From positions 3,697,001-3,761,000 of the forward strand of contig NZ_CP120737.1 in NCBI RefSeq assembly GCF_029581195.1: 64,000 nucleotides of DNA, in the 5' to 3' direction. This stretch comes from Solwaraspora sp. WMMD791. Its GTDB lineage: Bacteria > Actinomycetota > Actinomycetes > Mycobacteriales > Micromonosporaceae. Positions 36,148 through 39,228 of this stretch are shown piece after piece; the stretch's first letter is position 1, and each line of letters begins with the position of its first letter. The notes beneath the pieces were generated by a model. The model saw only the letters and a list, made by a program, of their open reading frames with translations. It made no database searches and had not been told where the DNA came from. Made by a program: the position numbers and the translations under genes.

Positions 36148-38592
36148 TCAGACCTTCTCGATCGGGGCGTGCCGCAGCACCAGCCACATCGTCTGATCGC
36201 CGAAGTCGATCTGTGCCCTGGCCGCCGGGCCGTGGCCTTCCACCGCCAGCACCCGACCCAGCCCGTAACGCTGGTGGTTGACCCGCTCCCCGACCGCCAC
36301 CTTCGGAGCGGTTGGCAGCTCACTGGCGGTGCTCAGCCGGCTCGGGTCCACCCCGAGCCGCTGGGCGAGGCGGGCGGCTTTCGGCGTACCGCCGGCGAAG
36401 CCGCCACCGCGCGCCACCAGTGACCGGTCCGCAGTCCCCGACCGGCCCCCGACGCCGCCGCCCGTGCCGGACCAGGACGTGTACGCGCCCTCGGTGCGCT
36501 CCCAGCGGACCAGCTCGGCCGGCAGCTCGGCGAGAAACCGCGACGGCGGGTTGTACGCCGGCTGCCCCCACGCCGCCCGGGTGACCGCGCGGGACAGCAG
36601 CAACCGCTGCCGGGCCCGGGTGATCCCGACGTACGCCAGCCGCCGCTCCTCCTCCAGCTCGCGGGTGTCGCCGAGGGCGCGCAGATGTGGGAAGACGCCG
36701 TCCTCCAGCCCGGTCAGGAAGACCACCGGGAACTCCAGGCCCTTCGCGGTGTGCAGCGTCATCAGCGTGACCACGCCCTGGTGGTCCGGATCGTCGTCGG
36801 GCACCTGGTCGGCGTCGGCGACCAACGCCACCTGCTCCAGGAAGCCGGCCAGGGTGGCCGGCTCGTCGGACGCCTCGACCCGCTCGGTGTACTCCCGGGC
36901 GACGCTGACCAGCTCCTGCAGGTTCTCCACCCGGCCGGCGTCCTGCGGGTCCAGGCTCTCCTCCAGCTCGGTGAGGTACCCCGACCGCAGCAGCACCGCC
37001 TCCAGGACCTCCTCCGGCGTGGCGGTGGCGGCCGTCTCACGGACTCCGTCGAGCAGCGCCACGAACTCGCCGATGGCGTTCACCGCCCGGGTGGAGATCC
37101 CCGGGGCCTCGGCGGCGCGGCTCAGCGCGGCGCCGAACGAAATCCGCTCCCGGGCGGCCAACGCCTCGACGCACGCCTCGGCCCGGTCGCCGATCCCCCG
37201 CCGGGGCGTGTTGAGCACCCGCCGGATGCTCACCGTGTCGTCGGCGTTGACCACCGCCCGCAGGTACGCCAGCGCGTCGCGGACCTCCTTGCGCTCGTAG
37301 AAGCGCACCCCGCCGACCACCTTGTACGGCAGCCCGACCCGGATGAACACCTCCTCGAAGACCCGTGACTGGGCGTTGGTGCGGTAGAAGACCGCGACGT
37401 CGCCCGGCCGGGCCGACCCGTCGTCGCAGAGCTGGTCGATCCGCCGGGCCACCCAGTCCGCCTCGGCGTGCTCGGTGTCGGCGACGTAGCCGACGATCGG
37501 CTCGCCGTCGCCCTGGTCGCTCCAGAGCCGTTTCGGCTTGCGGCCGGCGTTGTTGGTGATCACCGCGTTCGCGGCGGACAGGATCGTCTGGGTGGAGCGG
37601 TAGTTCTGCTCCAGCAGGATCGTGCGGGCCTGGGCGAAGTCGCGCTCGAACTCAAGAATGTTGCGAATGGTCGCGCCCCGGAAGGCGTAGATCGACTGGT
37701 CGGCGTCGCCGACCACGCAGAGCTCCCCCGGCGGTACGCCGTCGCTGCCGTCGCCGACCAGCTCCTTGACCAACTGGTACTGCGCGTGGTTGGTGTCCTG
37801 GTACTCGTCGACCAACACGTGCCGGAACCGCCGACGGTAGCTCTCCGCGACGTGCGGGTGGGACTGCAACAGGTGCACCGTCGTCATGATCAGATCGTCG
37901 AAGTCGAGCGCGTGCGCCTCCCGCAGCCGGCGCTGGTAGAGCGCGTACGCCTCGGCGAGCGCCCGCTCGTTGGGGCCAGCCGCCCGGTCGGTGAACGTTT
38001 CCGGGTCGACCAGCTCGTTCTTCAGGTTCGACACTCCGGTGGCCAGCCCACGGGCCGGATAGCGCTTCGGATCCAGGTCCAGCTCGCGGGCGACGAGCTG
38101 CATCAGCCGCCGGGAATCGTCGGCGTCGTAGATCGAGAAGGTGGACTTCAGACCGGCGTGCTCGTGCTCGGAGCGCAGGATCCGCACACAGGCGGAGTGG
38201 AACGTGGAGACCCACATCATCCGGGCCCGGGGGCCGACCAGGTTGCCGACCCGCTCCTTCAACTCCCCGGCGGCCTTGTTGGTGAAGGTGATCGCCAGAA
38301 TCTCACCGGGGTGGGTGCGCCGAGCGGCGAGCAGATACGCGATCCGGTGGGTGAGCACCTTGGTCTTGCCCGACCCGGCACCGGCGACGATCAGCAGCGG
38401 GCCACCGGCGTGGGCGACCGCGTCCCGCTGCGGGCCGTTGAGACCGGTCAGCAGGGCCGCGCCGGCGAGGGAACCGTCGTCGCCGGTCCGGGCGCGGTCA
38501 GCGGTACGAGGGCTGTCGTCGGGTACGCCACTACCGCCACGGCTGGCAGCAGGTACGGGTGTGGCCGCTGGGGTTTCGAAGAGAGGATGCAT
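36148..38592 (-). CDS. pcrA: ATP-dependent DNA helicase PcrA/UvrD
   Basis: An 814-residue superfamily 1A 3'-5' helicase. Motifs: Q-motif LNGPQRDAV, Walker A VAGAGSGKTKVLTHRIAYLL, motif Ia AITFTNKAAGELKERV, motif II VLVDEYQDTNHAQYQLVK, motif III VGDADQSIYAFRGA, motif IV LLEQNYRSTQTILSAAN, motif V TLHTAKGLEFPVVFLTGLED and motif VI YVGITRARQRLLLSRA. The C-terminal Tudor-like RNA-polymerase-binding segment is present (VGERVNHQRYGLGRVLAVEG). A 50-residue disordered N-tail precedes the core. It acts in nucleotide-excision repair, complementing Mfd in this window. Confidence 0.97.
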   Translation of the reverse strand: MHPLFETPAATPVPAASRGGSGVPDDSPRTADRARTGDDGSLAGAALLTGLNGPQRDAVAHAGGPLLIVAGAGSGKTKVLTHRIAYLLAARRTHPGEILAITFTNKAAGELKERVGNLVGPRARMMWVSTFHSACVRILRSEHEHAGLKSTFSIYDADDSRRLMQLVARELDLDPKRYPARGLATGVSNLKNELVDPETFTDRAAGPNERALAEAYALYQRRLREAHALDFDDLIMTTVHLLQSHPHVAESYRRRFRHVLVDEYQDTNHAQYQLVKELVGDGSDGVPPGELCVVGDADQSIYAFRGATIRNILEFERDFAQARTILLEQNYRSTQTILSAANAVITNNAGRKPKRLWSDQGDGEPIVGYVADTEHAEADWVARRIDQLCDDGSARPGDVAVFYRTNAQSRVFEEVFIRVGLPYKVVGGVRFYERKEVRDALAYLRAVVNADDTVSIRRVLNTPRRGIGDRAEACVEALAARERISFGAALSRAAEAPGISTRAVNAIGEFVALLDGVRETAATATPEEVLEAVLLRSGYLTELEESLDPQDAGRVENLQELVSVAREYTERVEASDEPATLAGFLEQVALVADADQVPDDDPDHQGVVTLMTLHTAKGLEFPVVFLTGLEDGVFPHLRALGDTRELEEERRLAYVGITRARQRLLLSRAVTRAAWGQPAYNPPSRFLAELPAELVRWERTEGAYTSWSGTGGGVGGRSGTADRSLVARGGGFAGGTPKAARLAQRLGVDPSRLSTASELPTAPKVAVGERVNHQRYGLGRVLAVEGHGPAARAQIDFGDQTMWLVLRHAPIEKV

Positions 38593-38662
38593 CGCAGCAG
38601 GAGTCTATGCCGACCGACTGACAGCGGTGAGCAGGCTCTCGGCGGGCAGTTGGCCGGAATCC

Positions 38663-38692
38663 TTGCGCTGGCGTCGGCCGCATGGGCATACT
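38663..38692 (+). promoter_or_regulatory. Promoter of the aromatic leader and chorismate mutase gene
   Basis: TTGCGC (38663-38668) and CATACT (38687-38692) are spaced by 18 nt and resemble sigma-70-type -35 and -10 boxes. The -10 box ends 7 nt before the GTG at 38700, so transcription would start at that codon and the message would be leaderless. Inferred, not measured. Confidence 0.55.
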
Positions 38693-38699
38693 CACAGGC

Positions 38700-38768
38700 G
38701 TGATCCGCCGAGCGCGATTTTACTTTACCTACGGTTCCGGGAGTCCGGCTGCCGCAGGTCGCGCCTGA
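38700..38768 (+). CDS. Aromatic leader peptide (candidate attenuator peptide)
   Basis: A 22-codon frame from GTG 38700 to TGA 38766-38768. It encodes MIRRARFYFTYGSG and then SPAAAGRA. The Phe-Tyr-Phe-Thr-Tyr run uses TTT TAC TTT ACC TAC, unusually AT-rich codons for this genome. Four of five consecutive codons ask for the products of the pathway branch that the downstream chorismate mutase feeds. The predicted promoter would begin transcription at the GTG. Fifteen nt after the stop begins a strong hairpin. An in-frame ATG at 38682 overlaps the -10 box and is therefore unlikely. Confidence 0.65.
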   Translation: MIRRARFYFTYGSGSPAAAGRA

Positions 38769-38782
38769 TCATCAGACCTACG

Positions 38783-38816
38783 AATGCCCCGGCTCTCGCG
38801 AGAGTCCGGGGCATTT
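38783..38816 (+). terminator. Hairpin in the leader of the chorismate mutase gene (attenuator terminator)
   Basis: AATGCCCCGG (38783-38792) pairs with CCGGGGCATT (38806-38815); inside it CTCTCG/CGAGAG extends the stem, with one bulged T at 38805. ATTTCG follows. The stem is about 16 bp and lies between the aromatic leader peptide and the gene. A shorter hairpin centred on CTGATCATCAG precedes it and could be part of an alternative fold. Confidence 0.75.
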
Positions 38817-38874
38817 CGCGTTCCGGGCATCGCGGAGCGTCCACCGGGGGCCCGACCAGTCCAGGAGGCAGGAC

Positions 38875-39228
38875 ATGGGGACCAACGCCGTAGCGCCACA
38901 GAGCGCCGAGGACAGCGCCACCGGTGCCACCACGGGCGGCACACCGCCGGGTGGCCGGCAGCAGACCGGCACCGACGCTCCGGAGGCGGCCGACCGGATC
39001 CTGGCGATCCGCGACCGGATCAACGAGATCGACGAGGCCTTGATCTCGCTGTGGCAGGAACGTGCCGAACTGTCGCGCCAGGTCGGCGCGGTCCGGATCG
39101 CCTCCGGCGGCACCCGGCTGGTGCTGTCGCGCGAACGGGAGATCATGGAGCGGTACCGCACCGCGCTGGGCGCGGACGGCACCCAACTGGCCCTGCTGGT
39201 GCTGCGCGCCGGCCGTGGGCCGCTCTGA
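38875..39228 (+). CDS. Chorismate mutase (AroQ class)
   Basis: A 117-residue protein whose last 80 residues are an AroQ-type helical chorismate mutase: RILAIRDRINEIDEALISLW, QERAELSRQVGAVRI, and SREREIMERYRTALG, with the conserved Arg, Lys/Arg and Glu positions of the active site in register. The N-terminal 38 residues are a Gly/Thr/Ala-rich extension. ATG at 38875 has AGGAGG about 6 nt upstream. It converts chorismate to prephenate, the branch point to Phe and Tyr. The 107-nt leader carries the aromatic peptide and hairpin described separately. Confidence 0.9.
   Translation: MGTNAVAPQSAEDSATGATTGGTPPGGRQQTGTDAPEAADRILAIRDRINEIDEALISLWQERAELSRQVGAVRIASGGTRLVLSREREIMERYRTALGADGTQLALLVLRAGRGPL

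Follow-up and report, generated by a model that had tools for sequence, protein, structure and literature searches.

The question raised by this locus is whether the DNA ahead of the chorismate mutase (CM) gene of Solwaraspora sp. WMMD791 regulates that gene, and if so, in response to what. Our answer is that the 175 nt upstream of CM very probably constitute a ribosome-mediated transcription attenuator that senses the supply of Phe and Tyr. Positions are given in the window, i.e., the whole 64,000-nt stretch of DNA analyzed; loci and families used for comparison carry our own L and f numbers.

The leader locus in the window

Promoter-like hexamers, a leaderless frame starting at GTG 38700, a hairpin, and a chorismate mutase gene had been claimed by a sequence-only reading of this DNA, and all of them lie where it put them, sequence and translation being in agreement. 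Promoter, frame, and genes are as follows.

38663..38692, + strand: predicted promoter of the leader transcript (-35 TTGCGC at 38663-38668, 18-nt spacer, -10 CATACT at 38687-38692)
38700..38768, + strand: leaderless leader peptide VIRRARFYFTYGSGSPAAAGRA, 22 codons, start GTG 38700, stop TGA 38766-38768
38718, 38721, and 38724, + strand: leader control codons TTT, TAC, and TTT, respectively
38863..38868, + strand: Shine-Dalgarno sequence AGGAGG of the CM gene, from sequence
38875..39228, + strand: stand-alone AroQ-type CM, 117 aa, ATG 38875 (NF005894, TIGR01808, PF01817)
36148..38592, - strand: PcrA helicase, divergent neighbor, start 38592 (TIGR01073, E 2.5e-284)

The CM protein matched NF005894 (E 4.1e-29) and TIGR01808, in both cases exceeding the cut-off, and PF01817 as well. 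As read from the sequence, 7 nt separate the CATACT box from GTG 38700, and transcription is predicted to start at or beside that codon. The leader had been credited with five AT-rich codons that are rare in the genome; this is true of TTT, which is found twice against 56 TTC in six window genes (a sample of our own choosing), and untrue of TAC and ACC, which are the usual codons in those genes. Another leader codon, TAC 38730, falls inside the first hairpin (1:2).

Scanning both strands of the window for short frames with at least four Phe/Tyr per five codons and a -10 box returned a single frame, that of 38700; without the -10 rule, the sole addition was ATG 38682, an alternative start for this frame that lies upstream of the -10 box. 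A stricter scan for promoters and T-run terminators had no match at the leader locus because the -35 TTGCGC is non-consensus and the tail of the hairpin has only three T. The least demanding explanation would be an ordinary terminator hairpin with a frame beside it by chance, and many weak matches of our RNA model elsewhere do resemble plain terminators. However, such an aromatic frame occurred in 0/2000 random 282-nt regions and the upstream neighbor, PcrA, is divergent, so the adjacent upstream gene has no need of a terminator at 38783-38816; we give this explanation next to no credence.

A riboswitch or other described RNA was rejected, as Rfam gave no match in the window at the gathering score and none at E up to 5 within 38560-38900. 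The leader RNA model had one strong match in its own genome. A second copy was considered and judged unlikely from the next full-length match (E 0.02), which comes directly after an unrelated frame ends and resembles a plain terminator. Upstream of its three type II DAHP synthase loci, this genome has no aromatic short frame, and type I DAHP synthase (TIGR01361) was not found in it.

Conservation of the frame and of three RNA pairings

Protein searches provided 87 CM loci for comparison, namely those of seven genomes of the genus (the window's included) and the best 80 of 91 loci on named contigs; we take these 80 to be Micromonosporaceae, except for two metagenome bins labelled Actinobacteria or Actinomycetales. 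An alignment of orthologous upstream regions was where the earlier claim could have failed, and it did not: the window counted, an aromatic leader precedes CM at all 87 loci (L055 was judged by eye) and in two further family members from the class search, and the terminator covaries. Conservation of the frame on this scale makes a chance frame untenable.

In the 86 scored loci of this set (L023 was unscored; the best 80 of 91 are included), a CATACT-like -10 box is invariably found 6-7 nt ahead of the start codon, and the best match to TTGCGC at a spacing of 16-19 nt is 6/6 in 58, 5/6 in 19, 4/6 in 8, and 2/6 in 1. In 85 of the 86, start codon and aromatic run share a reading frame (the exception, judged by its length, is L055), and the distance from stop codon to terminator is scattered over all three frames (35, 29, and 22 loci). 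L023 and L055 have a frameshift after the aromatic run, with the run itself retained. Such conservation of the frame argues that the leader is translated.

With the Tyr before Gly numbered as codon 0, Phe or Tyr occupies codon -4 in 52 of 78 leaders, -3 in 75, -2 in 77, -1 in 68, and 0 in 78. Parsimony on the CM tree (one reconstruction) gave 41 changes in the control codons, 22 of which exchanged Phe and Tyr; 14 led from Phe or Tyr to another residue (seven at codon -4), one led back, and four were among other residues. Codon occupancy and the 22 exchanges indicate that Phe and Tyr are largely interchangeable in the leader.

Within the family, the C-terminus of the leader peptide, GSPAAVGRA, is also highly conserved, as would be expected if the peptide itself were active, whether by arresting its ribosome or in trans, and its Phe/Tyr content were incidental to codon supply. 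We consider this very improbable: the GSPAAVGRA stretch coincides with paired RNA, the frameshifted L023 and L055 still keep the aromatic run, C-termini in other families are quite unlike this one, and Trp usually joins Phe and Tyr in leaders ahead of DAHP synthase. A leader read for its codons is thus preferred, and the RNA that would respond to it comprises the following elements.

38729..38757, + strand: hairpin 1:2 (anti-antiterminator), CUACGGU-U-CCGG, loop GAGU, CCGG-CU-GCCGCAG
38740..38748, + strand: outer antiterminator stem, 5' strand GGAG-U-CCGG, which pairs with 38789-38796
38754..38781, + strand: inner antiterminator stem, GCAGGUC 38754-38760 with GACCUAC 38775-38781, one C-A mismatch in the window strain
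38783..38816, + strand: terminator hairpin and short U tail, 38783-38796 with 38801-38815

Pairing was assessed in alignment A1 of 78 rows, window included, from which the duplicates L010, L043, L044, L050, L051, L072, and L074 were removed, along with L055 (no in-frame start) and L040; L041 and L087 were shortened at their 3' ends. The Salinispora rows seem to be one column off in the terminator arm and were counted as unpaired there.

The terminator hairpin begins 14 nt past the stop codon. It had been put at roughly 16 bp; the hairpin is there, but its computed size is 14 pairs, with a bulged U at 38805 and a stability of -23.5 kcal/mol that 0/2000 random 34-mers matched. Its family form is AAAGCCCCGGGCUC with GAGCCCGGGGCUUU. 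Over the 78 sequences, 95.9% of 1087 cells are paired and 21 two-sided cells occur in four pairs; none of 500 shuffles attained the observed two-sided cells or covariation score. The tail has three T in the window and four or five in many relatives.

Earlier, the antiterminator had been drawn as CCGGGAG with CTCTCG. This is right in part, as GAG 38741-38743 does pair with the terminator-arm CUC; more completely, 38740-38748 pairs with 38789-38796, and the inner stem is added. In the family, GGAGUCCGG pairs with CCGGGCUCC in the terminator arm, and GUAGGUC with GACCUAC forms the inner stem. Outer and inner stems combined are paired in 95.6% of 1238 cells (inner helix, 96.5%). Among 500 shuffles, none reached the percentage paired, two reached the covariation score, and 362 reached the number of pairs with two-sided changes.

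The hairpin at 38729-38757 is a third element, absent from the earlier reading. Its family pairing is UACGGC(n)CCGG with CCGG(nn)GCCGUA, and 97.4% of 779 cells are paired in the 78 sequences, A38731-C38755 being a mismatch in the window strain. In the 78-row alignment, 110/500 shuffles reached each of its measures; within the family this hairpin is too invariant to beat shuffles, and covariation was therefore sought between families. One C-G pair of the family is U-A in 23/23 sequences of f19, and another is G-C in 6/6 scorable sequences of f2 (nine were tried).

Slid-register controls for the three elements reached at most 69% paired, vs the 95.6-97.4% observed. RNAalifold returned most of the terminator, part of hairpin 1:2, and a short local hairpin over the inner antiterminator strand, an incomplete picture because a single consensus cannot represent alternative structures. 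At 38754-38756, the window has GCA, as does L005 at the same codon, where most relatives show GTA or GTG; the C of GCA disrupts one pair of hairpin 1:2 and one inner antiterminator pair together, so the balance between them may be kept.

The leader might also sense Phe and Tyr and yet act via Rho, or by controlling access to the CM ribosome-binding site, rather than by intrinsic termination. The U tail is short in the window and weak at several f19 and f2 loci, and translation attenuation is described for cysteine genes of M. smegmatis in the relevant passages of PMC13236596. We nevertheless judge this route unlikely, as no other element covaries as well as the terminator stem, many relatives do have four or five U, and the Shine-Dalgarno sequence at 38863 lies outside the paired elements. 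Intrinsic termination remains our preferred reading.

Folding with a ribosome in place

The effect of a ribosome was modelled by folding nascent RNA that ends before the terminator 3' arm, with pairs spanning the ribosome forbidden; here and in an earlier run that permitted such pairs, stem probabilities are averages taken over the best two-thirds of the pairs in each stem. Over the 78 sequences, the outer antiterminator stem averaged 0.85-0.90 with the A-site at codons -5 to -1, 0.41 at codon 0, and 0 beyond codon 0 or with the stop codon in the A-site; without a ribosome the mean was 0.31. The corresponding values in the window were 0.88 at codons -5 to -2, 0.51 at -1, and 0.10 at 0, and the stem was at 0 both without a ribosome and with one at the stop codon. 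Codons -3 and -2, the most protected ones before the hairpin, are among the most effective in this model. A cruder folding of 23 f19 leaders gave 0.59-0.63 with the A-site at codons -6 to -2, compared with 0.26 when no ribosome was placed and 0.18-0.25 once it had passed the run.

These values have to be read with three properties of the model in mind. A stall ahead of the aromatic run (codon -6) likewise frees the antiterminator (0.80-0.85), so the model does not restrict the effect to Phe/Tyr codons, and it is the codons that give specificity. The loss of the antiterminator at the stop codon depends on forbidding pairs across the ribosome, because the permissive run left the outer stem at 0.82 (78 sequences) and 0.93 (window) in that position. 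On the full-length transcript of the window, the terminator prevails at every tested ribosome position (0.96), and the switch must thus be kinetic, acting during RNA synthesis. Within these bounds, antiterminator and terminator are mutually exclusive in the model, and stalling on the control codons favors the antiterminator.

The scheme that we propose is one in which the start site, the stalling, termination in the cell, and the response to Phe and Tyr are what we infer. Transcription would begin at GTG 38700 or right beside it, whereupon a ribosome would immediately load on the leaderless frame. When Phe-tRNA or Tyr-tRNA is scarce, it would stall at TTT-TAC-TTT and mask the first strand of hairpin 1:2, releasing GGAGUCCGG; the latter would pair with the terminator 5' arm, over the inner stem, to form the antiterminator, and RNA polymerase would continue into the CM gene. 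With ample Phe and Tyr, the ribosome would reach the stop codon, the terminator would form, and transcription would end near 38816. The same end is predicted if the frame is not translated, as hairpin 1:2 would form and the terminator after it.

At the level of sequence and its folding, the locus has a run of end-product codons in a short frame, a terminator between that frame and the gene, and an antiterminator exclusive of the terminator. The claim of ribosome-mediated attenuation is supported by the aromatic leader at 87/87 loci (the best 80 of 91 plus seven of the genus), the covarying terminator, and the folding of the antiterminator. The frame and its conservation, the pairings and theirs, and mutual exclusion in folding are what sequence analysis establishes for the putative attenuator.

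Other families, DAHP synthase, and known systems

A class search found a CM match in 60 of 197 genomes, of which the best 50 were examined. Among these, leaders like MLTHPTFLFTYGNRPTGCHGRAA stand ahead of CM at 15/15 loci of f19, probably Streptomyces; 13 were found by the scan, and two with fewer Phe/Tyr (L115, L118) were read individually. In f2, probably mycobacterial and of the same order, leaders like RRFFYGYRPAVPVV occur at 8/14 CM loci of the same 50 genomes; the other six have no aromatic leader (five in the scan, L117 separately). Leaders before CM in f41 and f42 contain KFFYGNR, RFFYGIR, and SFFYGHR, whereas at the nine CM loci of f18 there is a short FYG alone in seven, FYQG in one, and nothing in one.

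In alignment A2 of f19, TTT ACC TAT precedes GG in 23/23 sequences (TTT AGC TAT in L118). TTT and TAT are expected to be rare in genomes of this type, and rare codons may sharpen stalling in the f19 leaders. Upstream of CM in L102 and L119, both from genus g4 of f2, there is no Phe/Tyr run; instead, there is a leaderless-looking short frame and a common stretch, GGTCTGTTTCACGGTGAA, which may represent another control in place of the attenuator.

The family RNA model was also run against 394 genomes. CM lies downstream at 28 of the best 30 loci (window counted) and DAHP synthase at the remaining two. Matches at E up to 0.01 occurred in 140 of the 394 genomes, a tally that overstates the spread because 9/17 inspected matches seemed to be upstream of neither gene. 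The two DAHP synthase loci and two weaker matches, all in f17, precede type I DAHP synthase. Of the 30 best type I DAHP synthase loci in a class search, 20 are preceded by a short aromatic frame (e.g., MQRNFWRFYGYRPTGSVARRALR and MRTAWSFWYGDGPVRTDRLQALR) and ten are not. Loci with the frame are as follows.

f17: L202-L207, L210, L213, L219, L224, L226, L229
f14: L220, L228, L230
f32: L214
f29: L215, L217, L218, L231

CM supplies Phe and Tyr only, whereas DAHP synthase supplies Phe, Tyr, and Trp. By one rule, Trp was found near Phe/Tyr in 17/20 DAHP synthase leaders (best 30 loci) vs 4/114 CM leaders; counting distinct peptides, the figures were 15/18 and 4/85. The P value of this contrast, 4e-15, ignores relatedness, and the contrast is in reality backed by a handful of lineages. 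Both kinds of leader are present in f32, which has YFYG and FFFYG before CM (L121, L125) and AFWYDYEF before DAHP synthase (L214). In 14 DAHP synthase leaders, the outer pairs of a hairpin 1:2 are mostly not conserved. On balance we lean toward a class-wide actinobacterial attenuator with control codons tuned to the place of the enzyme in the shikimate pathway, Phe/Tyr at CM and these plus Trp at DAHP synthase, the plan of promoter, peptide, and hairpin being inherited or reinvented per gene. The leaders would then form a natural experiment in which the amino acids read tend to match the branch supplied by the enzyme.

The attenuator would give the aromatic amino-acid branch point a regulator in these actinobacteria, among which antibiotic producers are numerous, and attenuation predicts a short terminated RNA that can be looked for in existing RNA-seq data. 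In the main texts of the open-access literature, we found no description of a leader peptide at an actinobacterial CM. The survey of PMC1262725 states that conserved RNA structures were not seen upstream of phenylalanine and tyrosine operons in Actinobacteria; the passages of PMC8079986 on S. lividans leaders name eight, none for Phe/Tyr; trpL is the sole leader mentioned in the corresponding part of PMC12125101; and the word chorismate is absent from the main texts of PMC2965389, PMC13236596, PMC4633059, and PMC11109978. Ribosome-mediated attenuation is classical; it is its place at CM in this phylum for which no earlier report was found, and the evolutionary evidence for it there is unusually clear.

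Three known systems invite comparison. In E. coli pheL-pheA, as outlined in PMC11802643, a leader peptide governed by Phe-charged tRNA likewise precedes a gene for CM activity, but the enzyme is a bifunctional mutase-dehydratase rather than the stand-alone AroQ mutase of WMMD791, and pheL reads Phe, whereas the WMMD791 frame is leaderless and contains codons for both Phe and Tyr. The actinobacterial trpL, ilvL, and leuL are similarly leader peptides before amino-acid genes, and most of the S. lividans ones listed are leaderless, but they sense other amino acids (the pertinent parts of PMC1262725 and PMC8079986). In aroR-aroF of C. glutamicum (Neshat 2014, as summarized in PMC11802643), an actinobacterial Phe-Tyr-Phe leader attenuates an aromatic-pathway gene; according to the same summary, aroR responds to Phe limitation, the supply of Tyr being reported as without effect, and the gene downstream is that of DAHP synthase, whereas in WMMD791 it is CM.
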